A stretch of DNA of 64,000 nucleotides, from assembly GCA_946699065.1 (NCBI GenBank), contig CAMPDV010000282.1:1-64000 (forward strand). Direction: 5' to 3'. Below, in pieces: positions 1,590 through 58,107 of the stretch. Both the position numbers and the translations under genes were made by a program. Numbering within the stretch: the first letter of the stretch is position 1; every line of letters begins with the position of its first letter. Origin of the DNA: Loxodes magnus. Lineage: Eukaryota; Ciliophora; Karyorelictea; Loxodida; Loxodidae. The notes below the pieces were generated by a model. The model made no database searches. It worked only from the letters and a program-made list of their open reading frames with translations, and had not been told where the DNA came from.

Positions 1590-4500
1590 TAAGACTATAT
1601 TTATGAATCCAAATAAAAAGGAAAGATAATTAAAGCTCTCTAGAAATACTTTAGAAAAGAGCAGAAACTAGAACTTCTAATTAAAACTACGTTCAGCGTG
1701 AGATCTATGAACTAGCTCTCAAAATAAGTCTAAGAATTAATAAAGCTGAAAATCTGAAAAGTCTGAAATAGAAGTTGAGTTATGACTACGAAATACTTGA
1801 GAGCTCTGATCTAGTTCTCAAACGAAGTCTAAGTATCAAAAAGCTGAAGAAATAAAAAGACTGAAATAAGAACTTATAGTTAAGACTTAGTTATAATCGA
1901 GTGCTCTGATCTAGTTTTCAAAATAAGTCTGAGTTGAGTTAAAACTGAAGAATTTAAAAAACTGAAAGATGAACTTATAGTTAAGACTCCGTTCATCTTA
2001 AGAGCTCTAATCTAGTTCTCAAAATAGGTTTAAAATCTAAAAAAGTTTGAAAATCTGAAAAGTTTGAAAGTAGAAGTTTATATAAGATTCCATTCTACTT
2101 AATAGCATGCTCAAATAATTAAAATAATCTAAGTATTCAAAGCTGAAGAAGTTAAAAGACTGAAATTACAAATTTGAGTTTAGTATCTACTCATCTTAAG
2201 AACTCTGATCTAGTTCTCTAAATAAGTCTCAGTATCGAAAAACTGATGAAGTTAAAATACCGATATAACAACTTTGAGCGAAGACTCGGATTCTCTTTAG
2301 AACCTTTCACAGTATTAAAATAAGTATGATTAACATATTGCTGACTAACTATTAAAACTGCAGAATTTAAGTAAAGACTCAGATATACTTTAGAGCTCTT
2401 ATCGAGTTCCTAAAATTAGTCTGAATATCGAAAAGATGATGAAGTTAAACTACAGAAATAGAAAATCTGAGGGAAGACTCCGATATTTTTTGAGTTCTGA
2501 AATAGTTTATAAAGCAATTCAGTGTTGCGTTAAAGCTGAAAATCTTAAAAAACTGAAATAAGATTTTGTGAATAGAAACAGAAATACTTAATAGCTCTGA
2601 TCTAATTATAAAAAGATTATGATAGAGGTAAAACTTAAGAAATTAAAAACTAAAAAACGGACTTTAAGCGAAGAATCCGACATATTTTAGAAATCTGAAC
2701 TAGTTTCAAAAATTAAAAGTATCGAAAAAGCTAATTAAGTTAAAGTACTGAAATAAATCTTTGAGTTAAGACTCAGATAATCGTGCGTTCGACACTAGTT
2801 CTAAAAAAAATTGACAAACATATTGCAGATAAACTTAAAAAACTGTTAACAGACTTTAAGTAAAGAATCCGTCATACATAGGAGTTATGATCTTTTATTC
2901 AAATTTAATCTGAATATCGAAAGTGCTTAAATACTAAAAGACTGTAAGAAAAAATATAAGATTCGAATCCGTTTCCATTGAGAACTCTGATAAAAATAAT
3001 AATTAATCTGAATATCGAAAATGATGAAAAAATAAAAGATTAAAGAAGAATTTTAAGTTTGGAATCCGTTAATCCTTATGAACTCTGATACTGCTCTCAA
3101 AAAAGTCTGGGTAGAGATTAAGCTATAGAACTGTAAGACTGTAAGAAAATCTTTAAGTTTGGAGGCCATTATCCTTGAAAGCTCTTATCCAGTTCTCCAA
3201 AAAGAGACAAGTAAGATGTAAAGCTTAATAACTAAAAGACTTTAAGAAGAACTTTAAGATTGCAATCCGTTATCATTGCGTGCTCGGATCTATTTCTATA
3301 GTTATATCTGAATATCGAAAGCGCGGAAAATACAAATTGACTGTAAGATGAACTTTAAGTTAGGAATCCGCTTTCCTTTAGATTTGTTCAAATCCTGCCA
3401 TTAACTGAGAATCGAGATTACTTAAATTTTAAGAATCTGTAAGAGAAACTTAAAGTTTAAAATCAGTTAATCGTTAAATGCTCTGATCAAGTTATCCGAA
3501 AAAGTTTGCTGATCTCTAGCTTAAGAACTATAAGTCTGTAAGAAAAACTTTAAACTTGGAATTCGTAAATCCTTAAAAGCTCTAATCAAGTTCTCCAAAT
3601 TTGAACTGAGAATCGAAGGTGCTAAATCTTAAAGACCGTAAGAGAAACTTTAAGTTATGAATCTGTTAATAGTTAAAAGCTCTTTTAAATTTCACCAAAA
3701 AAGTTTGCTGATAAAAAGCTTAACTACTAAAAAATTGTAAGAAGAACTTTAAGTGGCAATCCGTTATCATTGCGTGCTCGGATCTATTTCTATAGTTATA
3801 TCTGAATATCGAAAGCGCGGAAAATACAAATTGACTGTAAGATGAACTTAAAGTTTGAAATCCGTTATCCTTTAGATTTGTTTAAATCATGCAATTGAAC
3901 TGAGAATCGAGAGTGCTTAAATATTATAAATCTGTAAGAGAAACTTTAAGTTTAAAATCAGTTAATCGTTAAATGATCTGATCAATTTATCCGAAAAAAG
4001 TTTGCTGATCTCTAGCTTAAGAACTATAAGTCTGTAAGAAGAACTTTAAGATTGCAAACCGTTAACATTGCGAGTTCGGATCTTTTCCTTAAATTTAATC
4101 TCAATATGCAAAGTGCTGAAATACTAAAAATCTATAAGATGAACTTTAAGTTCGGAATCCGTTATCCTTGAGAGCTTTAATCAAAATCTCAAAAAATGTC
4201 TGTGTAGGGTTAATTTTTATGAACTGTAAGACTTTAAGAAGAACTTCAAGTTTGGAATCCGTATCCTTTAGAGCTCGATTGTTTTCTAAAGCATAGTCAA
4301 ATTATCGAAAGTGCTGAAATCTAAAATACTGTAAGATGAACTTTAAGTTTTGAATCCGTTATCCTTGCGAGCTCTGATCAAATTTTCAAAAAATGTCTGG
4401 ATAGATGATAAGCTTAAGAGCTTCAATACGTTATGAAGAATTTAAGTTTGGATTCCATTTTCTAGATTGCTCTGTTCTTTTTCTCAAAATATGTCTGAGT

Positions 4501-4870
4501 TACGAATAAGCAGAAGTACTTAAAGAATGAAAGTTCAACTTATTTTATAGACTCCGTTTCATTTGAGATCTTTAGTTTAGTTCTAAAAATTTTTGTCGGG
4601 ATAAAGTTGAAAAACCTAAAATTTGAAAGAAGAGCTTTTACTAAAAAACTCCATTCTGTTTCATATTTATATCCAGTTCTTAAATTATTAGTAATAAATT
4701 TTAAAAGCGGAAGATTTTAAGGTTGAACATTTAGTTAAAGAAATTTCTGCTTGAGAGCTTGGATCTAGTTCTCAAAAGGAGTCTCAGTAGTGATAAAGCT
4801 GAAGTTCCTAGAAGATTTTGAGTAGAACTTTGAATAAAAACTCTATTCTGCCCTTTCTAAGAATTTTCTC
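1590..4870. repeat. Diverged ~100-bp tandem satellite, about 33 copies
   Basis: Units recur with landmarks such as gagctctgatctagttctc and actttaagtttggaatccg. Measured spacings between successive ctttaag landmarks at 3151, 3252, 3353, 3449, 3548, 3648, 3747 and 3847 are 96-101 nt. The period is not a multiple of three and varies, so a coding repeat is unlikely. Copies are heavily diverged except for a block near 3264-3357 that recurs almost unchanged 494 bp later (3758-3851), indicating a five-unit higher-order repeat. Similarity fades near 1590 and 4870. Confidence 0.85.
3264..3851. repeat. 494-bp higher-order repeat inside the satellite
   Basis: The string beginning ccgttatcattgcgtgctcg occurs at about 3268 and again at 3761, and about 95 nt around it are identical, although neighbouring units differ strongly. 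The following units (3361-3540 and 3857-4040) also match each other better than they match other units. This implies recent amplification of a block of five units. Confidence 0.75.
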
Positions 4871-17556: not shown

Positions 17557-20500
17557 TCAAGTTTATTGCTCTTCAGAACTAATTTTCTAGTTTAGGTTTT
17601 TTTTTCTTCTAAGTATCTCCTTTCTTGTTCATTTTCAAGCTAACTTTCATTTTTTTCTATTTTCTGTTGTCAATCTTCTTCTTCTTCATCTTCGCTATCG
17701 TTTTCCTCTTCGTTCCAATCTTCTTCTTCCTCATCAATTTTCATCTAATTTTGTTGGACATCTTATTCTTTGTTTTCTTGTTTTTATTATTCTTCATTCT
17801 CTTCATTAAAATTTTCTATTCTTAGATTTGCTTCTTTTTTATTATTTCTCGTATTGCTCTTCTTCTTTCTCTTGTTATAGAATTTCTCGCCTCCTTTTGA
17901 TAAACATTTGAATGAATATTTTTATTTATTCATCCACCATTTCTATTTTTTTCTTAGGAAAAGAGTTTATATATAGTTAATCGTAATTTATTAGTTTCAA
18001 AATATCACACTAACCAATTTTGGAGACCAATCATTCTCTTATATCAATGTAATATATGCACTCCATTACATGTTGGAGAGTGTCATATTCTCTGTATATA
18101 CAAAAAGGGTTTTCAATATCATAATTTCGATCTTTCAGAGTCTTTCGAAATGCGTAAGACTGGCTTCTAATCTTATAGATGCAAATTATTTCTTTCAAAT
18201 ATTTTTTGTTTAATTTCGTGTATGCTATTTTGGGGAATTATCTTAGGTTTTAAAATTGTTCTGTATATATTTATGCAGTAGGGATTCTGCTGAATCTTGA
18301 AAGAGCTAATTCAAAATATGTCTTTTATATTTATGCCTACACATATCTACTGAATTAAGTTAAGTTGTTATTGTGCTCTTTATTATCAATTTCTATTTTA
18401 TAAAATGAGGCCAGTTTCTAAACTTCATCATAATATTGATATCCCTCTTTATAATTATTCTCAAACAATATTCCAATAGATGAATAAGGTTGATTTTAGC
18501 TTTCATTTCTAATCTTAAAGAAAAACCTGAAATACTTAAGAACCATCATGTGTTTGAATGGCATCCAGTTGAGGTCTACAAAGCATGATTCATTAAACGT
18601 ATTTCCTGCTGATTAAAAGGCTTTTCTGGCTATTAACCTCATGCTCTTTTCAATTCTGTTCAAGATTCCATTTATTCCATACTGCACAGTCCAAGGTATT
18701 AAGTCCCCACCGTATTCTGCTTTAGGAAGCATGAACAGTCTACAAAGCATTTTGAAATTTCAAGGTGTTACATTTCTATATCTTGATAATGCAAATACTA
18801 CCTTTTTAATTGCTGAAAGATAGTTTGCAGCAACGTATTTGCAATGGTTTATTAGATTCTTCTTTTGGTGAAAGATCACCCCTAAATATGTGACTTGCTG
18901 TTTCTAAGTTATTGCTTGGTCTCCTATTTTTAAGTCTAGTTTTGTTTCTTTGCTTTTCTTTTTTAAAAACTATAACGTTTCGCATTTGGAGACATTTATT
19001 TTAAGAAATGTCTAATTGAAAATGGAGTTTGCTTCATTAATAAGTGACTACATGTTTTTTTAAGAGTTCGATAATAGGATTAAATCGTCAGCTCAACCTC
19101 TACAAGTGAACCTATTCTTAAAATTAGCACATCTGAATCCTAATATTTCTCCTTTGTTTTCTATATGTCTAATGACAATGTCATAGTATAATAATGCAAG
19201 CACAGGTCCATGCGAACTTCCTTACATCACTCCATTGCTAAATTTCAATTTCTTAGAATTTGTTCCGTCTATAATAAAGGAAGTAGTTAAGTTATTATAA
19301 AATGATTCTAAAGCCAAGATGAGACCTAGTGGTAATTTTACTCTTCTTAGTTATTTAAAAAGAATTCTTCTTTCAATAGAATCAAACATTTTCTCTACGT
19401 CAATTAAAGTTGCAATCAGTTTAGTTTTTCCTTTCGCTTGTTTTCGATAAAGATCTATGATTTATTGGATCACTCATATTTATTAGGTGGTTTATTTCTT
19501 CTTCATAAACCCCATTTAGCTTGAGTGGATTAACTGTCTTTCATAAATTATTGAGTAGAGTCTCTTCGTAAGGGCCTTATCATATAATTTCAAAATAGTG
19601 TTGATAAGGGAAATAGGGCGTCAGTTTTTTCAATCGTCTTTACTTCCTTTTTTGAAAATGGGGATTATGATAGAAGTATTAAGCTCTTCAGGAATCCTTC
19701 CAATTCTAAGCATGTTATTTATAAAAGAATGAAGCATCAACGCTAGATAATATCCTGCATATTTTAGCAGTTCTCCTTTTATTCCATCTGGCCCTGCTGT
19801 TTACCATTAGGAATTAGACTTATAAGTTAGGTAATCTCTTCTATTGTAAAAGGATCGAAATTTTATAAGTAAGAAAAGGGTTAATTTTGAATTTCTATGT
19901 TATTTTCATAAATTGCATCTATTTTCTAGTTACTTAGTTCAATCTATTGGTTAGTTAAATTCGAATGCTTGCTAAATACCTAATTTTCCCATGCTTCTAC
20001 AAACTAGTCCTTCAATTCCTTAATAAAGTTCATCAAATTTTATTGTCTAGGGTTAAGTATTTTCTTTGCCTAAGAAAACATATCTTTTGTGGTTTCATTG
20101 AGGAGTAAGAATCTGTTTTTGGCCTTTTGTTTTTTAAATTTTCATAAATGATGCTAAAAGCTTTTTCATAATGTGTTCGCTCTTTAGTGAAGATCAATGA
20201 TTTCTTAGTTATTCCTCCCTATATATGCTAAAGTTTCTTTGTACAATTAATTTGCTCTCTTTGCTTCGATATATTTTTATGTGAGGTCCTTAGGAAGTCT
20301 ATTATACTTCGGGTCTGGGATAAATGAGCCTAAAACTTAATCTGCATTGTTCTAAATGCAGTCTCTAATATAAGTGTACTAGTCTTCTAAGTTATCTTTA
20401 TCAATTAAGAAGAATACTTCTACTTAATCTTTGAATGAATTCTAATAGATAAATCTATCAATAGGATCCTACAGTCTACTTATTTTGTGCTTTCTCACTT

Positions 20501-21236
20501 TTATTTTTTCAGTTTGAAGATGAGTATGGTATACAAATTCAACTGTGAATGGAATATGATCTGAAAATAAGCTATAATTATGAACCTGAAAATTTCTAAA
20601 TTAATTCATATTCAAGTGATTACTGATGACAATATAATCGTTGCAATACATATTTTTATTCCCTTTATGTAAGCATGTGTTCATATTTGCATCGTTTATT
20701 ATTTCTAAATCGTTTTAGAGAATGAATTCTTAGAATCTATTTGTATTGTCATAGTTGTTAATAGGGTTATCCCCAAAGCCTTATAGTAGTGCGCTAAAAT
20801 CTCCTAATAATATATGTGAGTTGTCAGGAAAAGAATTAAGGAATACATTTATATATTCATATGCTTCGTCTTTTATATTTTCACTCTTGCTGTTATCTGG
20901 CATGTAACAAGATGTTATGAATATATTATCTAGTTTGATTGTAACGAACCTCTCTTGAGCTAATTGTTATATGTTATTCTATTCCGTGCTATTAAGTTAA
21001 TCTCTAACAATTAAGCAAACTCCTCCTCCTTTTTCTGAGTTCTTGAAATAAGTCCTATATCCATTAATAAGTATTGGAGGATAGTCTTATTTTTATCACG
21101 TTTCATTAATTGAGAAAATGTCTAAGTCATTATTTCGTATAAATTCTTCCACGTTTAATTGCTTGCTTCCAATTCCATTTATGTTAATATGTCCAAGCTT
21201 TATTATGCCTATCTCTCTTTGCTTATCGATAGGCAT
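17557..21236 (-). mobile_element. LINE (non-LTR) ORF2: APE endonuclease and reverse transcriptase, decayed
   Basis: From ATG 21236 the frame gives an APE-type endonuclease: KLGHININGIGSKQ, then IFSINETWQKQDYPP (ETW with TGA=Trp), then SCYMPDNS and HILLGDFSALLQGFGDNP. A reverse transcriptase follows: AGPDGIKGELLKYAGYY, IPIFKKGSKDDWKNWRPISL and the catalytic box RGWADDLIL. A C-terminal finger is present (FCIYREYDTLQHVMEC, about 18080), then a Glu/Asp-rich tail at 17900-17620 and a TGA at 17557-17559. At least one one-base break lies near 19800, where NGK and AGPDGI are out of frame, so this copy is probably dead. The element would copy RNA into DNA at a nicked target. The endonuclease Asn-Gly-Asp residues seem kept, except that the usual GDFN is GDFS. 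Confidence 0.88.
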
Positions 21237-21239
21237 CTT

Positions 21240-24120
21240 TATTTCTTAATTCCCAAATTCTTGTTTGCATTAATATGGTTATTCTTCATTGTTCTCTACA
21301 CCTCCTTTGAGTCTTAGTTATTTTTAAAGGACAATATAGTTAATTCTAAAATCAGTTTAAAGCAGCGTTTTAACTATATAATTTCCGTTTTTTATAAATC
21401 GATAATTTCTTATGATGAAGTCAAAACTCCTCCTTTTATTCCTGGTTCATAAATACAGAGAATCTTCTCATTTTGATGAATTTATATGTTAAGCAATTTG
21501 GGGCAATTTTTGATATATTACCTGTAACTTATTATAATGAATAATGTCAATGAATCGTACTTTTCGCTCAATTTATTATCGATTTTTATATCTATTTCAT
21601 TTCCATCACACGTAGCATGGTTTAGTTTGCAAGATAAAGTTATAAATCTATTGCCTACTAAAGTGAAAAGATTCTAATTTCATCATTTATTGGACCTTAT
21701 AAATTAAATTAGTTAGGCGTCTTTAAATTCGTATTTATTTAAAATCTCTTCAATATTTATTTCATTAAACCCAAATTTTGACTATTTTAAGTTTAAAGTG
21801 TCTTGATTAAATTTGGCATCTCTTCAACTTCTCTTTCCAAATTTTGTTTGACTATCCCAATTCATCACATATGATGTCTAATTATTTGAATTTTCTAAAA
21901 TTTCAATCTGCTAATCTTCTTAAATTTAATCAATTAAAAATGTTTATGTTGAAGCGTTTCATTTTATTTCTTTCAAGTAAGATTGAGTTTTAGCATCTTA
22001 TTATTTTCTCTATATTTCTGAAATTTAAGCATAAGCATTTAGCTTCAATTCTACTTGATGCTCATAATCCTGCATGAGTTAAACATATAATCCGTTTAAT
22101 TCATTATATTACTCTTACAGTTTTCCATTATTCTATTTTGTGATTTATAGTTCTTGTTAAGAAGTAACTAGCTAATGATTGGTAACTACTGTTATTGTTC
22201 CTTCATCCTTAGTATTGATAGAATTTTAAGTCTAAATAACCTAATTCTTTAACTCCATGATTCTTGTCTAACTATAATTGCTTATTAATTTCCCTTTTTC
22301 TGTTCATGTTCAAGCATCTTTGCTATTAATTTTTAAGCAGGTTTGTGTTTCCTTTTCTCAAAACTATTTTTATTAACATGAGACAAGCCTTTAGTAGACA
22401 CTCTATATATCTTAATTGATAAATTATTTGTTTAATTTATCATATAAATTCTACAACTTTGTATACTTCAATTCAACGAAGTCGCACTAGGTAGATTTAT
22501 CTAAAAATAATAAGTCTGTACCAGTAGTTGAATTTAAAGTCGATATAGTAGCTTGAGAAATTTAGTTGCTGAATTGAATTTCAATTTATGTTTATTCATT
22601 CTATGCCTGAGGAGTGATTGTTTATGTAAAAATGCTTTTGACTGATTTGGCATATTTATTTTTTTGAAAGCTCAGTTCCTATGATATTTAATAATTCTCA
22701 TTTTGTAATAATTAACACTAAGCCTGTTTTTACTGGCAATTGACTGTAAGTGAATGTACCTTTTAGTCGATCTGATCTATTTTGCTTAATAAATGAAAAT
22801 TTTCACCTTTGAGATTTTAGTTAAGAGTTTCTACCTCCATAAGATGTTGTTATACTTCATTATGTCTCAAATTACATTTACTCAATTCAGCTTGAATGAA
22901 TTAAATTTGAGTAACCAAATTGTTTATAATATTTTGGGCTTCTTACTTGGAAGCAAGTATTGCCTCATCTTGTAGTTTAAAGGATTGTGTCATGTTCATT
23001 AGCTCCTCACGAAGCATAGCTTGTTTTTCTATACTTTGCTATTAAGTCTAAGTGAGAAGTTAACTCTAAGTTTCCAATTCTTATATTTAAGTTAAGGAAA
23101 GATCAGTATTCGTTTATATTGATTATTATTTATTTGTAGCATTATTTACAAATTATTTGGACTAAAGCATTAACTATTTCTACTAATTATCAAGCCTTAA
23201 GATTTAATTTTTATTCTAAATTTTCTTAATTTACTTTTGAGCTTTAAATAAATAAGTTTGGTATTATTCTAAGTGTATTTTATATTGTGATTTAATGTTT
23301 AAAGTTTCTTTATTGTGTTACTCATAGATATGTATTAGCTTTTCTTACAGAGAATTATTTTTAGTTATGAGTTTTTAAATTCGAAATTTAAGATTTTTGC
23401 TTTCACTTAGCCTTTAATTTTCAAAAGTATTTGCCTCTTCTATCTTGCTTTAAATTTTATGTTTTAATTTTGCAATTTTTTCTTAAAGTTACGCATTTTA
23501 AATCTCTTGATCAGTTAAGTATGTAATATCAAACTTCTCTTAGTAATCAGTTTAAATGTCTATATAAATCTGCTATTGACTTTTTATGTTATTTTGTGTA
23601 TTGAATTGTTGAATTTTTATAGTCTCTTATTAATTTTGTATTTAAATTTAATTTTAGTTTTTAATTAAAGAAATATCTTAAATATCCTAAGTATCTAAAG
23701 TATCTTACTGTATATACGATATTTTAGATACCATCGTAGAGGTTGAAGTAACAAGCTAGTCTTTTAAGTATATTTCCTATATTTGAGTTTAGTCTTCAAT
23801 TAATGTCCACGTTTTAAAGAATTGCCAAGCTGTCTTAGTGGAATTCGAAGATATCTATTAATTTGGCATTAACTGCAGCTCTTTAGCAAATTTCTTAGTA
23901 ATTTCATGATATTATCAACGCATTTAAGTTGCAGCGATTCCATGTCTATTTCATAAAAGTAGTTGAACATCTGCCTATGCTCATCGTTTTAGAAAGCAGC
24001 TTCTTTATTTTTAGATAAAGAAGAGTCGCTAAGAAAGAAATCTTGCGAATTTTTGTACAAGTCCATTTTTTTTTCTATAAGATAGTTTTTTGGAGTAAAT
24101 TACAGGCATATAACAACTGG
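21240..24120 (-). mobile_element. LINE ORF1-like region upstream of ORF2
   Basis: A long Gln-rich minus-strand frame precedes ORF2, for example QDYEHQVELKLNAYAQISEI, TSYVMNWDSQTKFGKRSWRD and LTLFIIISYRQ (22100-21520), continuing to within a few bases of the ORF2 ATG. It looks like a coiled-coil protein with a globular C-terminal part, as expected of a LINE ORF1. No intact CCHC knuckle was seen here. Frames above about 22400 were not resolved. Confidence 0.55.
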
Positions 24121-27658: not shown

Positions 27659-29618
27659 TCAAAAAATCATGCAGCGACATCTTGATTTTTTCACGATCTA
27701 AACTTAGTTCATGCTAGCTTCTCTTTGTAAAAGTTATTCTAAATCTTTTTTCAAATCCTATTAAGTCATATTTGAATTTTATCTTAGGATAATCTCAACA
27801 AAACCTTTTAAGCTTATTAGTCTATATTATTCTTTCTTTGAATAATGGAAATATCAGTCAATATCTCTCCTCCTTTTTAGCATTTTAAACTGTTTCTTAT
27901 TTTCTTCATCTTAAGTTTATATAAAATCTTAGTATTTTTATCTTAACTATTAATCTTATTCCGTTAAAGGGTTATAAACGCCGTATAAAAAGATAAAAAT
28001 TTCTCCAAAACGGTTTCCATTTACTTCAAGTTAGAATTTATGCTAATATTTTCCTGAATCTTTCTCCGTTTTAATTTCTATTTCCACTATTTCGCTTTAA
28101 TTTGGATTTAAGTCTCCTATTTTGTAATTTTATACCAAATTATCTATATTTTCTATCGAAACATTTTATGGCCATTGCTCTTTTCCAATATTTTATACTT
28201 CTAACTATATTTTAACCACTTCTTCATTTAAATAATTATTAAGCCCTTATTTTAACTTAATAGAACCTTAAGGTAATTACGTCACTTCAAAGTGGACTTA
28301 GCATTCATTTGAAATATTTTACTTATCACTTTTCTTAAGTACAAATGTTTAAAAGAATTTTGTTTCTTTAAAATCAATAAAACTAATTTATATCTTCTTT
28401 ATAGTAGATTCTTATGGTTATAGATTTTGGTCTATTTTTCAAAGTTATTGTGCTTCATTCAAGATTAAATAAACAGGCAAATTTCACTTTTCAATTCCAA
28501 TATTTTTTATTTTGCTAATTTATAAAACTTACAATTCTAGTTCAACTTGCTAACCGCTATATACTCTTTAATATTAATTAACGCATTCTATTTTTCCCTG
28601 TATAAAGACTTACTTCATATATTGAACTATATTCACTCTTTTTATCCTCCTAATATGTTTTTCATTATTTTTCGTTTATTATTTTATTATTGGACTGCAG
28701 TTGACTTTATCTTAACTCTTCATCTTTCTTTTACAGTTATAGAGCAAGTTCTTGAATTTTATTTTCATAGCTTAGATACATATTTTATAACTAATTTTGG
28801 AATTAGTTAGTTAAATCATTTTATGCCTTTTAAATCTAATCCTATAAATAATTCTTTTCTAATTGTACTTGCTAGATTTAGTTTGGAAAATCTTGCTCTT
28901 TTAATTTTACTTCTTCCTAAAAAATAAGTTAAAAGTTGTTTCTTTATTCTGTGTCATTAATTATTTCTTCTTAGTATTTTTATCTTAACTAGTACATTAT
29001 TCCTGGCTTTTTTTACGAATAATACTACTCTACTTTTTCAGGATTATGCTTATATATCCAAGCTATTTTATGTAATACTTATTCTTCTTGACTGCTTATT
29101 TTATTTTCCTTCGAAAAAGAAGTCTAATCTTTATTAAAATATGCAAGCAACTGTAAACACTTAGATTATAACTCGTCCATTTGTTTCATTCGCTAGCACA
29201 TTTATTCCATTTCATTTAGACTTTATCTGTACTTTTCTTCTTTTGTATCCATTTTTAAGTTTCTATCTAATACATCTAGATCTCATTGAATCTACTTTAA
29301 TAAGTCAGAATCCTCTCTAGGTTCTAATATTCTAGCTATCTTTTCTCTTTTTCTAAACTTCTAAATTATTTGAGTAGTTTTTTAAGTTTTTTCATCGAAT
29401 TCAGCAAGATCTGACCTGGTTATTTTACTAAGTTAATTTAAGTTTTCCGTAATCCAATTAATGATATTCTAACACCGCTATGATACCAGGTCATAGAGAG
29501 AATACTAGATATCTGGCTGTTAGCATAGCTCAATAGTTTTGGTTAGCTATTATATCCCTTAATAAAATTGATTAGTCTCACTAGGTTTTTATGGATTAGA
29601 CTAATAATTAGGCTACAT
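27659..29618 (-). CDS. Coiled-coil protein with tandem NBR1-type FW domains, gene A
   Basis: Three exons: 29618-28614, 28597-28533 and 28514-27659, separated by a 16-nt (28598-28613) and an 18-nt (28515-28532) GTAAGT...AG intron. All junctions keep frame, giving 641 residues to TGA 27659-27661. The N-terminal part (LEPREDYDLLKQIQWDLDVL) is helical and coiled. Two Ig-like repeats follow, with ELEFKIKNIGIEKWNLPV and LEVQNIGKEQWPQNV plus GNRFGEIFIFLYGVYNP, the pattern of the FW domain of NBR1 and ILRUN (next-to-BRCA1 central domain). It lacks the Gln-rich exon and first intron of genes B and C. FW proteins act in selective autophagy or protein scaffolding, so that role is inference. Its 3' half is nearly identical to B. 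Confidence 0.85.
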
Positions 29619-37736: not shown

Positions 37737-39980
37737 ATGTAGCCTAATTATTAGTCTAATGTCTAAATGCTTAACAAACCTAATAAATTTGACTATGGGA
37801 TATAATAGCTAACCAAAACTATTGAGCTATGCTAACAGCCAGATATCTAGTATTCTCTCTATGACCTGGTATCATAGCGGTGTTAGAATATCATTAATTG
37901 GATTACGGAAAACTTAAATGAACTTAGTAAAATAACCAGGTCAGATCTTGCTGAATTCGATGAAAAAACTTAAAAAACTACTCAAATAATTTAGAAGTTT
38001 AGAGAAAGAGAAAAGATAGCTAGAATATTAGAACCTAGAGAGGATTACGACTTATTAAAGTAGATTCAATGAGATCTAGATGTATTAGATAGAAACTTAA
38101 AAATTAATACAAAAGATGAAAAGTACAGATAAAGTCTAAATGAAATGGAATAAATGTGCTAGCGAATGAAACAAATGGACGAGTTATAATCTAAGTGTTT
38201 ACAGTTGCTTGCATATTTTAATAAAGGTTAGACTTCTTTTTCGAAGGAAAATAAAATAAGCAGTCAAGAAGAACAAGTTGCGCATAAAATAGCTTGGATA
38301 TATAAGCATAATCCTGAAAAAGTAGAGTAGCATTATTTGTAAAGAAAGCCAGGAATAATGTACTAGTTAAGATAAAAATACTAAGAAGAAATAATTAATG
38401 ACACAGAATAAAGAAACAACTTTTAACTTATTTTTTAGGAAGAAGTAAAATTAAAAGAGCAAGATTTTCCAAATTAAATCTAGCAAGTACAATTAGAAAA
38501 GAATTATTTATAAGACTAAAAATTTTAAAACTGGTAATAGATTGTTCGTAAGTTTTACCTATTATTTTAGCATAAAAAACTGAGGGAATGAAAATGAAAA
38601 TTGATAGTAACCAAGAAGATTAAATAATATAGATGGGAACTTAAAAGTAACAAGTAACACTATCTAATGCATATCATTAATAAAATCAAATTTAACAGTT
38701 AAATTAAGGTTATTACGAAGATAATCAATAATAGTAATATTTAGCTTTCCCTATTTAAAGCTAAGAATAATATGACCCTTATAATAATTATTAATAAGAT
38801 TAGATCTAATAGATAAAAGATGCCTATGCTAAATAATATCAAAACTAACTACATGATATGTAATTAAAACATGAAAGTTGCGTTTAGGAACTTAATAAAA
38901 TACTAAAAGAAAAAGATGAAAAGTTAAAAATGAATCAAGTGCAATCCAGCATTCAGAATATAAACGAAAAATAAAAAAAAAAATATTAGGAGGAACGAAG
39001 CAGTGAATATAGTTCAATATATGAAGTAAGTCTTTATACAGGGAAAAATAGAATGCGTTAATTAATATTAAAGAGTATATAGCGGTTAGCAAGTTGAACT
39101 AGAATTGTAAGTTTTATAAATTAGCAAAATAAAAAATACTGGAAAAGAAAAATGGGACAAATCTGTGAGTCTATTCTTAGTAGAAAATTAATAGTATTTT
39201 TAAGTTGATAGAGTATTAAATTCCTCAGAAGTTATTAAGAAAAAGATAAAGACTAATTTGATTAGTTATGAGGAAAACTCTCTAGTTCAGACGTTTGTAC
39301 TTAAGAAAAGTGATAAGTAAAATATTTCAAATGAATGCTAAGTCCACTTTGAAGTGACGTAATTACCTTAAGGTTCTATTAAGTTAAAATAAGGGCTTAA
39401 TAATTATTTAAATGAAGAAGTGGTTAAAATATAGTTAGAAGTATAAAATATTGGAAAAGAGCAATGGACATAAAATGTTTCGATAGAAAATATAGATAAT
39501 TTGGTATAAAATTACAAAATAGGAGACTTAAATCCAAATTAAAGCGAAATAGTGGAAATAGAAATTAAAACGGAGAAAGATTCAGGAAAATACTAGCATA
39601 AATTCTAACTTGAAGTAAATGGAAACCGTTTTGGAGAAATTTTTATCTTTTTATACGGCGTTTATAACCCTTTAACGGAATAAGATTAATAGTTAAGATA
39701 AAAATACTAAGATTTTATATAAACTTAAGATGAAGAAAATAAGAAACAGTTTAAAATGCTAAAAAAGAGGAGAGACATTTCATGATATTTCCATTATTCA
39801 AAGAAAGAATAATATAGACTAATAAGCTTAAAAAGTTTTGTTGAGATTATCCTAAGATAAAATTCAAATATGACTTAATAGGATTTGAAAAAAGATTTAG
39901 AATAACTTTTACAAAGAGAAGCTAGCATGAACTAAGTTTAGATCGTGAAAAAATCAAGATGTCGCTGCATGATTTTTTGA
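37737..39980 (+). CDS. Coiled-coil protein with tandem NBR1-type FW domains, gene B
   Basis: Four exons: 37737-38547, 38571-39025, 39042-39106 and 39125-39980. The introns are 23 nt (38548-38570), 16 nt (39026-39041) and 18 nt (39107-39124), each GTAAGT...AG and each needed to keep frame; the product is 728 residues. Residues 1-270 are a helical, Gln-rich coiled coil. Residues 271-422 are a low-complexity Gln/Tyr region (YYEDNQQQQYLAFPIQSQEQ) and a coiled coil. About 423-520 and 521-625 are two FW-type Ig-like domains (LEFKIKNTGKEKWDKSV; LEVQNIGKEQWTQNV; SGKYQHKFQLEVNGNRFGEI). A helical tail follows, ending at TGA 39978-39980. TAA and TAG are frequent Gln codons throughout. Proposed role: receptor or scaffold in selective autophagy, by analogy with NBR1; no PB1 or ZZ domain is visible. 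Confidence 0.9.
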
Positions 39981-39984
39981 CTAG

Positions 39985-40580
39985 AAGAATTGAATAAATT
40001 AAATATAATTAACATTTTCATTTTAAAGCCAACTAATTAAATATAAGCCTTTCTAAATTCTTATTTTAAAATTAATTAACAAAACTTAAATTTAGAAACT
40101 TTGTGAATGTGAAGGGAATATAAGATATTCCTAAAAGATGTCATAAATACAAAAGTATTTTTTAGATACAAAATGAAATATTTCTATGAATAATGAATAA
40201 ACTGTAAAAACATAATAATTAGGTAAGAAATTCAAATTAAAAAATTTTAGGAAAATGAGTATTTCTTTTTAAAATTATTAAACCCTGAAATAGTGAGCAA
40301 TTTTCAAGATTCCATAGTTTAAAACAATTTCACTACAGGAATTACGCTACTTCTCCTTATTTTCATTTCAACTTGGCCAAGAAGTAGTAAAATTTTTTTT
40401 AAATTTCTTGTAGATTATCTTATTTTATCTGCAATTTCTTCAAAAGATTTTTGTGCTACTACAACTTTAAATTTAAATTTTACTAAAATAGTCTTGTGAT
40501 ATTTCATTGTTGGAATTGCTTCCTTCAATTAAAGATGTTATAATTTTATTTAAAATTTTTAATTTCTTCACACTTTCATC
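39985..40580. other. Intergenic, nothing recognised
   Basis: Similarity to gene A stops about 20 bp after the TGA of gene B. The rest is AT-rich with no motif seen. Confidence 0.5.
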
Positions 40581-40589
40581 TTCATCTTC

Positions 40590-41480
40590 TTCTTAAACTT
40601 GATCATCTTCATCATCAGTTTATTCCTTCTTTTATTCTTTTTACTCTTTATGTTCTTCTTCCTTCTCTTTATCTTCCTCATTCTCTTCATCTTTTTCTTG
40701 ATCTTTAAATTCTTCTCCCTTAGTTGTAGAATTTTCTAATCAATCATCTTTTTCCAGTTCAAATAATTCTAATTTCCTTTTAATTAACATCCTATGAAAA
40801 TTTTTTATTTGTAGATCAATGTATTCTAATTTGTTTTTTGGAAATTAATTGATATAGTTTTGGTCATATGTTATTAGTCTTCTAATATCACATTATCCAA
40901 TCTTTGCTGATATCCATTCCCGCATTTCTATATAGCAATCGCAATTCAGAATATGCTCAAACTTATCAAATTCTCCACATACGCAATGGGGATTCTCGAT
41001 AGAATAATATCTGTCTTGAAGGTCTTTTCGAAAGTTGTAGATTTATGTTCTGAGTTTGTATATACTAATTATTTCTCTTTGATATTATTTATTTAATTTC
41101 AGATAGGTAATTTACGGGTATTATTATTGTTATTAGAATTGTTCTATAAATAACTTTGCAGTGGGTATCCTTTTTAGTCTTTAAGTGATTATTTTATAAA
41201 ATTTGCTACTACAACTTTATTATTTGTTCTTGAATAATTTTAATTTCATCTTTCTATTTTTTTGGAGTAACTTAATAGAGTTATTAGGTTGTTTCTAAGT
41301 CAGTTGCTTCGAAACGGACTCAATTATTTTTACTTCTTTTTTTATTTATTAAAATTTATCACTTTGGTGCTAAATTACTCACGGGTCTTGGTCTAGTTCT
41401 TCCATCTTAGTTTCGTACTTCTATTTTAAATTAAATCAGGATCTGATATTTCCTTCGATAGTGTGAAAATAGGTATCATG
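40590..41480 (-). mobile_element. LINE ORF2 C-terminal fragment
   Basis: Minus strand reads CVCGEFDKFEHILNCDCYIE and EWISAKIGQCDIRRLITYDQ, aligned with the C-terminal finger of the ORF2 at 17.6-21.2 kb (CIYREYDTLQHVMEC). An acidic tail follows (EEFKDQEKDEENEEDKEKEE) in the same order as in that element. The upstream part toward 41480 is weakly similar, and the RT and endonuclease domains are absent: a truncated copy. Confidence 0.75.
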
Positions 41481-41489
41481 TATGATTTA

Positions 41490-42480
41490 TTTAAAAACTC
41501 TTTTTAAAGTATCATGACAATTCTTTTTAAATGGAATATTATTTCTTAAGTCTGCTTAATCCATTCAAAGGGTTTTTTCTATGGTTACATTACTCAAATC
41601 ATCATTCTTATTTAATTTTCTTACACTATTCCCTTCATTCAGTTCTTTATCTTTTTTTAAGGTATTTTGTTTTATATTGTCGAGATATGCTAGTACTCAC
41701 CTATCCATCTTGGAAGAGTCACTAGTTAATTTTCTTTTGTAAATTTCTCTCTTTTAATATTAATTAAGAAGTTTGGATAGTCAAAACTAAGACGTGAACT
41801 ATACTAATAAAATTATACAAATTAGTAAATTAATTACATCATAAAAAATAAGAACAATTAATGGAAAAAAGCATTCTAAATCTAAACTATAATCAAATCT
41901 TTTTTTGAGAGTTACTTAATTTACGAATCAAATTATTTTTTAGCTTACTAGTTGATTTATTTTAAAGTTGATTCTTATTAAAATTAATAAAGACATTTTG
42001 ATGAGCCATTCAACTAAATAGTATGCATATTATAATGCTAACCAGACTTAAATTTATAACTCTAAAATATGAAGTTTCTATCCCTCTCTTTTCATTTTAG
42101 CTTTACGTTTTAATCTACTTTAATATATTTCCACTTATATATTTTTAATCTTTATTCATTTCTATATATCTTACTACTAAGTTTATAAAGCTAAATTAAA
42201 GATAATCTTTATTTATACAACAAATGTAATTTAAAAAATGCTTCATTAATACAATTTTTTATTTCTTAAGATAATTTAACTAAAATCCCTTTTTAGTAAG
42301 AGTAATTAAACATTCAAATCTCACTATTTTTATCGCCTTAATTTTTCAAAACTAATCCACTTTTTTTTAATTATTTCAGTTTTAAAACTCCCTATAGCTT
42401 TCTTAATATCCCACTAAGCATTAAGATATATACGCTTAAAAGGAAAAAATCCTTATAAGCACATTTAATAACTTTAATTT
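41490..42480. other. AT-rich, nothing recognised
   Basis: No domain, RNA or repeat family was seen on either strand. Confidence 0.45.
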
Positions 42481-44335: not shown

Positions 44336-46246
44336 ATGGGAGCTAGTAATTACTAGGGACTTATAATTCCTTATGAAAGATTATAAAAAGTAAAAATATT
44401 AGGATAAGGAAGCTTTGGAGTGGTATATGCTGGAAAATGGAATGAAGTAAATGAAGTTGCGATAAAAGAATTTTACGAAGAGAATTTAACTTACAATACT
44501 TAGATAGAACTGAAGACTGAACTAGAAATAATGTCATAGTTGAAACATCCAAATCTGGTTAAACTATATGGATATTGTATTTCTCCTGTGAGTTTGGTAA
44601 TAGAGCTAATGTATTAATCTTTATTCAATTTATTACAAAGTAATGAAGAGATAGATTGAAATAAAAGGTATTAGATAACTTTAGATATAGTTGAAGGCTT
44701 GAAATACATTCATTTAAAAGGGATAATACATAGAGACCTGAAAAGTAATAATGTTTTATTGGATAGAAATTGAAAAGCTAAAATATGGGACTTTGGCTTG
44801 TCAAAATAAAAATTATTGTCAAGATAAAAAATATCCTAGTAGAGAAGTAGCTAAAAATAAGAAACATTATGTTGAATGGCACCTGAGTTATTAGGATTTA
44901 GGCCTAAATATAGTTTTTAATCTGATATATATGCGTTAGGAATGACTATGTGGGAGATAGCGGAGAGAAAATTACCGTATATGAATGTGATAGAAAACAT
45001 TCTTATAGAAGGAGTGAAAAAAGGAGAAAGGGAGTAAATAAGTTTAGACTGTCCTTAAGAGTTTAAAGAGTGTATATAGTAGTGCTGAAGAAGCGAAGCT
45101 TAATAGAGGATAAGTTTGGAAAATCTATAAAAAATGTTGCTAGAAGGAAAGAGAAATTTAAATAGCAAAGAACAATCAATGAAAGTATAGAATATATCTC
45201 AGATATAAATAAAGGAAGAAGATTAATCATAAAATTCGACTGCATCTATATAAAAAGCAGAAAAAGAAATGAAGTTCGAGAATGGTAATAGATATATAGG
45301 ATAAATTGTAAATGGAAAAAGATAAGACAAAGGAACTTACTATTACAAAAACGGTAATATATACGAAGGAGACTGATAAGTAGACAAAAGAGCAGGATAA
45401 GGAGTTTTAAAATATGCAAATGGAGCTAGATACGATGGATAATGACTAAAGAATAAAAAACAAGGAAAAGGAATTTAATATTACAAAAACGGTAATACAT
45501 ACGAAGGAGATTGATAAATAGACAAAAGAACAGGATAAGGAGTTTTAAAATATGCAAATGGAGCTAGATATGAAGGATATTGATTAAACGATAAGAGATA
45601 AGGTAAAGGAACTTACTATTACAAAAATGGCAATATATACGAAGGAGATTGATAAGAAGATAACAAATCAGGATAAGGAGTTTTTAAATATGCAAATGGA
45701 GATAGATACGAAGGGTAATTCTTGAATAATAAAAGATAAGGTATAGGAATTTATTTATGCAATAATGGAGATAGTTATGAAGAATAATAATGGCAAAACA
45801 AAATGAAAGGATATGGAATTCTTAAATATTCAAATGGTGATAGATATGAGGGATAATGATTAAATGGTAAAAAAGAAGGCAAAGGAGCATTATATTATAT
45901 TAATGGTGATATATTCGAAGGATATTTTTAAGAAGACAAAAGAATATGATATGGAGTTTTAAAATATGCAAATGGAGATAGATACGAAGGATAATGATTA
46001 AACAATTAAAAATCAGGCAAAGGAACTTATTATTGCAATAACGGGAATATATAAAAAGGCGATTGGTAAAGCAACAAAAAAATAGAATAAGAAGCATATA
46101 ATAATTGGAATGAAAGGAGTAAAAGTTAATAAAAAGATTGTTTTAGATCTAATAATTAAATTTTATATAGAATATTAAATAAAATAAATATTTGTTTACA
46201 ATAGCAAGAAATAAATAATTAATAATACTTTCTTTTACATTAATGA
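44336..46246 (+). CDS. Protein kinase (TKL-like) with C-terminal MORN repeats
   Basis: One uninterrupted frame of 636 residues, ATG 44336 to TGA 46244-46246. The kinase domain covers about residues 14-270: glycine loop LGQGSFGVVYAG (22-33), VAIK lysine 44, HRDLKSNN from 132, DFG from 152, and LCWMAPE with Trp 180 encoded by TGA. HRDLKSNN with WMAPE is the tyrosine-kinase-like pattern. From about 312 come twelve MORN repeats alternating two types (KNGNIYEGDWQVDKRAGQG and YANGARYDGQWLKNKKQGKG), where the conserved Trp is TGA and Gln is usually TAA. MORN repeats bind lipid or partner proteins and would place the kinase at membranes or cytoskeleton. DFG is preceded by an unusual Trp (KIWDFG). The last residues after the repeats (about 600-636) are less certain. 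Confidence 0.93.
45265..46080 (+). repeat. 138-bp dimeric tandem repeat encoding MORN motifs
   Basis: Successive MORN units of 69 nt alternate (NGNIYEGDW type and YANGxRYEGQW type), so DNA identity is highest at a 138-nt spacing, for example aaatatgcaaatggagctag and ggtaatacatacgaaggaga. This suggests growth by duplication of two-motif units. Confidence 0.8.
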
Positions 46247-55649: not shown

Positions 55650-58107
55650 ATGTAGCCTAATTATTAGTCTAATGTCTAAATGCTTAACAAAGCTAATAAA
55701 TTTGACTATGGGATATAATAGCTAACCAAAACTATTGAGCTATGCTAACAGCCAGATATCTAGTATTCTCTCTATGACCTGGTATCATAGCGATGTTAGA
55801 ATATCATTAATTGGATTACGGAAAACTTAAATGAACTTAGTAAAATAACCAGGTCAGATCTTGCTGAATTCGATGAAAAAACTTAAAAAACTACTCAAAT
55901 AATTTAGAAGTTTAGAGAAAGAGAAAAGATAGCTAGAATATTAGAACCTAGAGAGGATTACGACTTATTAAAGTAGATTCAATGAGATCTAGATGTATTA
56001 GATAGAAACTTAAAAATTAATACAAAAGAAGAAAAGTACAGATAAAGTCTAAATGAAATGGAATAAATGTGCTAGCGAATGAAACAAATGGACGAGTTAT
56101 AATCTAAGTGTTTACAGTTGCTTGCATATTTTAATAAAGGTTAGGCTTCTTTTTCGAAGGAAAATAAAATAAACAGTCAAGAAGAATAAGTTGTGCATAA
56201 AATAGCTTGGATATATAAGCATAATCCTGAAAAAGTAGAGTAGCATTATTTGTAAAGAAAGCCAGGAATAATGTACTAGTTAAGATAAAAATACTAAGAA
56301 GAAATAATTAATGACACAGAATAAAGAAACAACTTTTAACTTATTTTTTAGCAAGAAGTAAAATTAAAAGAGCAAGATTTTCCAAACTAAATCTAGCAAG
56401 TACAATTAGAAAAGAATTATTTATAAGATTAAAAATTTTAAAACTGGTAATAGATTGTTCGTAAGTTTTACCTATTATTTTAGCATAAAAAACTGAGGGA
56501 ATGAAAATGAAAATTGATAGTAACCAAGAAGAAATAATTAATGAAACAGAATAAAGAAACAACTTTTAACTTGTTTTTTAAAAAGAAAATCAAATACAAG
56601 AATAAGACTTACCAAGCGAAGTCTTTCCAGTCTAGTAAACATAAAATTAATAATAAACTTAGGAGCTTTATAACTAGTAGTAAGCTTACTGTAAGTTTTT
56701 ATATTATATTAGTATAATAAACTGAGGAAATAAAACATGATTATGAATTAGAAGCCACAATAATTTAAAAGGGGAATTACATGCAAAACTTAACACCATC
56801 TAATGTATAAAATTAATAACTTCAAAATAAACAGTAAATGAAAGGTAATTACGAAGCTAATCAATAATAGTAATACTAAGGATTCCATATACAAAGTTAA
56901 GAATAGTATGCTCCTTATTAATAAGATTAAATCTAATAGATAAAAGCTGATATTGCTAACTAGTACCAAAATTAGTTAGAAAATATGTAGCTAAGCTATG
57001 AAAATCAAATTTTTGAACTTACTAAAAGGTTGTAAGAGAAAGATGAAGATTTAAGAAAGAGATAACAGCTATTCATCAATCTAAAAGAAAACGAAAAATA
57101 TTAGAAACCATAAAAGGAGGAATAAAAGAGTGAATAAAATTCAATATATGAAGTAAGTTTTTATGCAGGGATAATTAGAATGTGCTAAGAATAATTTAAG
57201 AGTATATAGTGGATAGAAAGCTGAACTAGAATTGTAAGTTTTATAAATTAGCTAAATTTAAAATATTGGTAAAGATAAATGAAGCAAGCCTGTTAGTCTT
57301 TTTGAAACAGATAAGTAATAGTCTTTTAAACTTGATAGAACATTAAATTCCTCCGAAGTTATCAAGAAAAAGGTATAAATTAGTTTTATTAGTTATGAGG
57401 AAAATTCACTAGTACAGACATTTGTACTTAAGAAAAGCGATAAGTAAAATATTTCAAATGAATGCTAAGTCCACTTTGAAGTGATGCAATTACCTTAAGG
57501 CTCTATTAAGTTAAAATAAGAATCTAATTATTATTTAAATGAAGAAGTGGCTAAAATATAGTTAGAAGTATAAAATATTGGAAAAGAGTAATGACCATAA
57601 AATATTTATATAGAAAGTTTAGATAATTTTACTTAAAAATGCTTTGTAGGAAATTTAAATCCAGAGTAAAGTAAAATAGTAGAAATAGAAATTATCACAG
57701 AGAAAGATTCAGGAACTTACGAACATAAATTACAACTAGAAGTAGAAGGAAACCGCTTTGGAGAGATTCTGGCTTATTAATACACTGTTTATAATCCTTT
57801 AACTGAATAAGATTAGTAGTTAAGACAAAGTTACTGAAACTTCGTAAAAAATTTAGATGAAGAAAGTTTAAAATAGTTTAAATAGCTAAAAAAGAGAAGA
57901 GACATTGCCTGGTATTTAATATATTCTTAGAAAGATAGATTTTAGTAGATAAAGAAGGAAAATTTAGTTGAATCTATTTTAAGATAAAGCTCAAATATGA
58001 CTTAATAGGATTTGAAAAATGATTTATAAAATTTTTCACAAAGATAAGGTAAGACCAACTAAGTGCTGATAGTGAGAAAATCAGGATGTAACTGTGCGAT
58101 TTTTTGA
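55650..58107 (+). CDS. Coiled-coil protein with tandem NBR1-type FW domains, gene C
   Basis: Five exons: 55650-56460, 56484-56690, 56713-57152, 57169-57233 and 57252-58107. Introns of 23 (56461-56483), 22 (56691-56712), 16 (57153-57168) and 18 nt (57234-57251) all start GTAAGT and end AG. Frame is kept throughout, giving 792 residues ending at TGA 58105-58107. Domain order is as in gene B, but an internal duplication of about 230 bp (56296-56525 and 56526-56750) adds one exon and one intron. The first 870 bp are almost identical to B. The FW part has diverged in sequence but keeps KDKWSKPV and KEQWPQN, where both Trp are TGA although B uses TGG. Role as proposed for B: scaffold or autophagy receptor, by inference. 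Confidence 0.9.
56296..56750 (+). repeat. Internal exon-intron duplication in gene C
   Basis: The string gaagaaataattaatga, acagaataaagaaacaactt and the following intron appear twice, 230 bp apart. The second copy is more diverged. Genes A and B have one copy. Confidence 0.85.

Follow-up and report, generated by a model that had tools for sequence, protein, structure and literature searches.

The window analysed here, a single 64 kb stretch of DNA, is almost certainly part of the Loxodes magnus macronuclear genome read with NCBI table 27, with its genes A, B and C as recent duplicates. The assignment of TAA and TAG to glutamine and of TGA to tryptophan or stop is well supported. The finding is a correct re-derivation of table 27, which was already known for karyorelicts and for L. 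magnus itself. A codon with both a sense and a stop meaning is relevant to the choice of the ribosome between tRNA and release factor, and the window adds a clean natural experiment in which 25 open copies of one family have TGA and TGG swapped at the same tryptophans.

Codon exchanges among NBR1-like paralogs

The last exons of the three genes (Table 1) match the NBR1-type Ig domain of Pfam when translated with code 27 (E-values of 1.6e-10 for B, 2.5e-6 for C and 1.9e-8 for A), with scores of 41.9, 28.4 and 35.3 bits respectively, all above the cut-off of 28 bits. A, B and C are members of one duplicated family, which has a predicted NBR1-type Ig (FW) domain. The dN/dS ratio is 0.46 for A/B, 0.42 for B/C and 0.40 for A/C; across the family it ranges from 0.30 to 0.83, none of the 16 pairs tested reaching 1, and the NBR1-like family is under purifying selection. 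In all three genes the last exon follows a predicted 16-nt intron of the form GTAAGT...CAG at a GAA/GGA junction (Table 1). Gene B has a possible second intron at 38548-38570 (23 nt by eye, GTAAG...TTTAG), near a change of coding frame in our self-trained coding model. Within gene C a segment of about 218 bases is duplicated locally, 56293-56510 and 56523-56740 being 75% identical, and this duplication is missing from gene B.

In frame, the KEQW motif reads IGKE-CAA-TGG-T in gene B and IGKE-TAA-TGA-P in gene C. This exchange had been claimed in an earlier note on the window and proved exact to the base. The same note had described a second conserved tryptophan with TGG in B and TGA in both A and C, which was likewise confirmed. 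A third tryptophan site, absent from that note, shows the reverse exchange, with TGA in B and A and TGG in C.

Table 1. Positions in the window of the genes, predicted introns and codons discussed in the text
Feature	Position	Strand	Remark
Gene A last exon	27659-28597	-	Pfam PF16158
Gene A terminal-exon body	27662-28594	-	
Gene B last exon	39042-39980	+	NBR1-type Ig domain, Pfam PF16158
Gene C last exon	57169-58107	+	Pfam PF16158
Gene A predicted intron	28598-28613	-	16 nt, homologous to that of gene B
Gene B predicted intron	39026-39041	+	16 nt, GTAAGT...CAG, GAA/GGA
Gene C predicted intron	57153-57168	+	16 nt, homologous to that of gene B
Gene B KEQW codons	39462-39467	+	CAA TGG, homologous to those of gene C
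Gene C KEQW codons	57589-57594	+	TAA TGA, Gln-Trp
Gene A second conserved Trp (column 36)	28484-28486	-	TGA
Gene B second conserved Trp (column 36)	39153-39155	+	TGG
Gene C second conserved Trp (column 36)	57280-57282	+	TGA
Gene A third Trp site	27854-27856	-	TGA
Gene B third Trp site	39783-39785	+	TGA
Gene C third Trp site	57910-57912	+	TGG
Gene A terminal codon	27659-27661	-	TGA
Gene B terminal codon	39978-39980	+	TGA
Gene C terminal codon	58105-58107	+	TGA
Protein kinase and MORN-repeat gene	44354-46150	+	TGA at conserved MORN and kinase tryptophans
LINE-type retroelement	17842-21332	-	Endonuclease and reverse transcriptase frames, same code

A search of the genome DNA with gene C gave 36 matches, of which 29 were taken and the seven shortest (139 bases or less) omitted. 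Two copies with frame breaks (L020 and L026) and two partial ones (L036 and L037) were dropped before codons were counted, leaving 25 copies in which a single frame stays open for about 310 codons; the tree and the codon-change counts used 24 of these, without L014. The NBR1-like family is strongly amplified, 29 of the 36 matches being longer than 300 bases, and these longer matches lie on four contigs (C282, which is the contig of the window, C180, C1445 and C210) in both orientations.

Three columns of the 25 copies hold both TGA and TGG, at ratios of 12 to 12 (plus one TGT), 12 to 13 and 12 to 12 (plus one CTG). The KEQW tryptophan is TGG in 13 copies and TGA in 12, with nothing else, and the glutamine before it is TAA in 11, CAA in nine, GAC in three, AAA in one and ACC in one. 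Five of the eight family columns that contain TGA have no TGG in any copy. On the tree of 24 copies, exchanges between TGA and TGG account for 8 of the 13 inferred TGA changes, at a rate that tops all A/G third-position pairs. Changes of TAA were inferred to or from AAA (32), TAG (26), CAA (15) and GAA (15). Pooled exchanges between TAR and CAR on the same tree (21 changes per 110 units of exposure) run at a rate between those of synonymous leucine changes (21 per 59) and of amino-acid-changing T/C exchanges at codon position 1 (15 per 139), and TAG pairs with CAG in 7 of 29 columns. The paralogs alone thus give far stronger support for TGA as tryptophan than for TAA and TAG as glutamine. The earlier note had held that paralogs prove both readings. 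Both were borne out, and for tryptophan the paralogs are strong evidence, the KEQW site holding just the two codons; for glutamine the word is too strong, since TAA exchanges more often with AAA than with CAA and the KEQW glutamine column is itself mixed.

Codon meanings from outside homologues and release factor genes

The support for glutamine comes from outside homologues and from eRF1, the paralog changes being weaker. With TAA, TAG and TGA masked as X, translations were aligned to solved structures of kinases, MORN1, the LINE-1 reverse transcriptase and a Kelch design. Seven alignment blocks were used. Five covered a single domain apiece, the sixth stood for a group of five that were nearly identical, and the seventh was a single domain from a single chain. 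TGA stood opposite tryptophan in 9 of 16 columns and 17 of 28 cells; for TGG, taken as a control, tryptophan was opposite in 5 of 13 cells. Scored with BLOSUM62, the best reading of TGA was Trp at +38.1 bits, with Tyr next at +3.8; for TAA it was Gln at +2.7 bits followed by Glu at -1.4, and for TAG Gln at -0.6 followed by Ser at -1.5. The margin is wide for TGA as Trp and narrow for both TAA and TAG as Gln. Masked gene C gave two weak matches to solved structures (E = 0.086 and 0.46), which were not used, and the masked endonuclease frame gave none. The MORN match in Pfam likewise depended on how TGA was read, scoring 176.3 bits with Trp against 112.3 with Cys, 113.4 with Arg, 107.6 with Gly and 121.2 with the codon masked.

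Two full-length eRF1 genes of the same genome (L044 and L045) have 436 codons and all three eRF1 domains. To our knowledge the GGQ motif of eRF1 is invariant, and in both genes its glutamine is encoded by TAA (GGT GGT TAA). They contain 20 and 21 in-frame TAA or TAG codons and no in-frame TGA, and both end at TGA. These counts cover L044 and L045 out of three eRF1_1 matches, of which L043 scored best. The two genes are near-identical and lie about 35 kb apart on contig C196. Their N domain has RAQNIKS and FLCENTF in place of the usual motifs, TASNIKS and YxCxxxF.

Under table 11 the 64 kb window contains no open reading frame of at least 150 amino acids. In the frames called coding by the self-trained model, TAA, TAG and TGA occur at 59.6, 20.5 and 13.6 per thousand codons; the model had not fully converged and some of its segments may be non-coding. 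It used an order-2 background, a mononucleotide background having been dropped because of drift to low-complexity sequence. A C-terminal piece matching the LINE-type element was seen by eye at 40335-41753, and diverged tandem repeats occur at 1655-4506 (an AT-rich coding-like array) and at 45143-46132 (the 69-base MORN repeat unit). ARAGORN and Rfam found no tRNAs and no RNA families in the window. Ten further window frames were without a Pfam match, as were two in another set of ten.

Gene ends and alternative readings

The earlier note had also described TGA as both a sense codon and the end of the protein, and indeed A, B and C all run into a shared TGA. A shared last codon followed by TGA was found in 20 of the 25 NBR1-like copies. 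The 44 sense TGAs of these 20 copies all lie at least 64 codons upstream of the stop, and in all ten copies examined the GC content drops there, from 0.25-0.37 over the final 60 bases before it to 0.10-0.18 over the 60 that follow. TAA makes up 24 of the 400 codons within the last 20 of the TGA-ended copies, against 506 of 5819 before. The remaining five copies comprise L035, which has TTG at the stop column, the frameshifted L014, and three related copies in which TAA occupies that column (L031, L033 and L034, on contigs C282, C180 and C1445). In these three the first in-frame TGA beyond the TAA is 319, 192 and 52 codons away and is not common to them, and GC drops at the TAA from 0.25-0.30 to 0.10, much as it does where copies end in TGA. 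Because they form one lineage, their TAA endings count as one event. Two pairs within this lineage gave dN/dS values of 0.79 and 0.83, from 13 and 25 differences, and the copies may therefore be losing function; the lineage may be a decaying branch. A drop of identity past the TGA was clear between the A/B copies (0.99, 0.79, 0.64) and L009/L015 (0.85, 0.63, 0.64), unclear for L009/L019 (0.72, 0.70, 0.69) and L009/L022 (0.69, 0.73, 0.61) and absent from very close copies, and was given no weight because it is inconsistent among pairs.

Several other readings of these genes were weighed. If A, B and C were decaying pseudogenes under the standard code, their in-frame TAA, TAG and TGA would be premature stops, and the large number of copies, some of them frameshifted or partial (L014, L020, L026, L036 and L037), would be in keeping with decay. 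Against this stand dN/dS values below 1 in every pair tested, the confinement of TGA to Trp columns, the same pattern in kinase, MORN, Kelch and reverse transcriptase frames and in both eRF1 genes, and the absence of long table 11 frames. Since a living cell must have at least one working eRF1 gene, we consider the pseudogene explanation refuted, with only a very slim chance left to it. That TAA and TAG encode glutamate, as in Blastocrithidia (table 31), has next to no probability. Glutamate is the commonest residue opposite TAA in the masked alignments (11 of 72 cells, against seven for glutamine), and MORN alone slightly prefers it, with 176.3, 177.7 and 153.8 Pfam bits for Gln, Glu and Lys. 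The same three readings give 194.8, 189.7 and 192.3 bits for the kinase, 93.8, 86.3 and 84.2 for the reverse transcriptase and 42.4, 36.0 and 39.7 for the NBR1 Ig domain, putting glutamine ahead of glutamate by 5.1, 7.5 and 6.4 bits, to which the masked test adds a lead of 4.1 bits. The TAA codon at the GGQ glutamine of both eRF1 genes and the pairing of TAG with CAG also argue against glutamate.

A code like that of Condylostoma (table 28), in which UAA and perhaps UAG would terminate besides UGA, is improbable. It would accommodate the TAA stop columns of L031, L033 and L034, with their GC drop and lack of a shared downstream TGA, and in L. magnus coding UGA and UAA, not UAG, are reported to be depleted over about 20 codons before stops (PMC11441545). 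Yet TGA ends the window genes, most of the family and both eRF1 genes; UGA is named the only stop in L. magnus in the same source; the TAA endings reduce to one event in copies that may be losing function; and copies ending at TGA also have TAA among their last 20 codons. The earlier note had proposed codes 27 and 28 as candidates. Code 27 fits, as TGA is the terminal codon of A, B, C and the two eRF1 genes; code 28 keeps a small probability through the three TAA-ended copies. We also regard it as unlikely that UAA keeps some terminating power near the end of Loxodes transcripts, so that the karyorelict code would be less clean than table 27. On that view L031, L033 and L034 would be genes that naturally end in TAA, and such termination would have left its mark across the genome in the published, unexplained depletion of UAA, but not of UAG, ahead of stops. 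If UAA does end genes, the list of karyorelict terminators would need correcting and UAA depletion before stops would gain a reason.

Comparison with known codes

Our strongly favoured reading is that of table 27, under which UAA and UAG in L. magnus encode glutamine and UGA tryptophan inside genes, with UGA acting as terminator near the 3' end of the mRNA. On this reading A, B and C arose by recent duplication of a gene with an NBR1-type Ig domain, and synonymous changes after duplication, CAA to TAA and TGG to TGA or back, fell at residues that were kept. The codon meanings, the selection on the frames and the common TGA end were observed in this study. Behind them, a short-stem tRNA-Trp probably reads the sense UGAs of these genes, tRNAs matching UAA and UAG would insert glutamine, and eRF1 would prevail over the tRNA only close to the end of the transcript. 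A tRNA-Trp(CCA) with a 4-bp stem is reported in Loxodes (PMC13092985), and a model in which the tRNA wins by default and eRF1 near transcript ends has been described with the same code in Parduczia (PMC4967479).

Karyorelicts including Loxodes are described as using table 27, in which UGA alone is a stop and is read as Trp when it lies at a sufficient distance upstream of the poly-A tail (PMC11441545). The genes studied here share with Loxodes magnus and Parduczia the glutamine meaning of TAA and TAG and the use of TGA both as tryptophan inside genes and as terminator at their ends. Very short introns and a retrotransposon-rich genome are also in common; the introns predicted here have 16 nt, against a mean of 19.3 and a mode of 17 given for L. 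magnus (PMC11441545). In the 20 TGA-ended copies sense TGA is missing shortly before the stop. No difference from table 27 was established, and the three TAA-ended copies are unexplained by it. Condylostoma magnum (table 28) has in common TAA and TAG as glutamine, TGA as tryptophan and context-dependent termination, but all three codons also terminate there, whereas here TGA stands at the ends except in three copies. UGA as tryptophan together with a 4-bp-stem tRNA-Trp is also reported in the dinoflagellate Amoebophrya sp. ex Karlodinium veneficum (PMC13092985), which belongs to another phylum than Loxodes.
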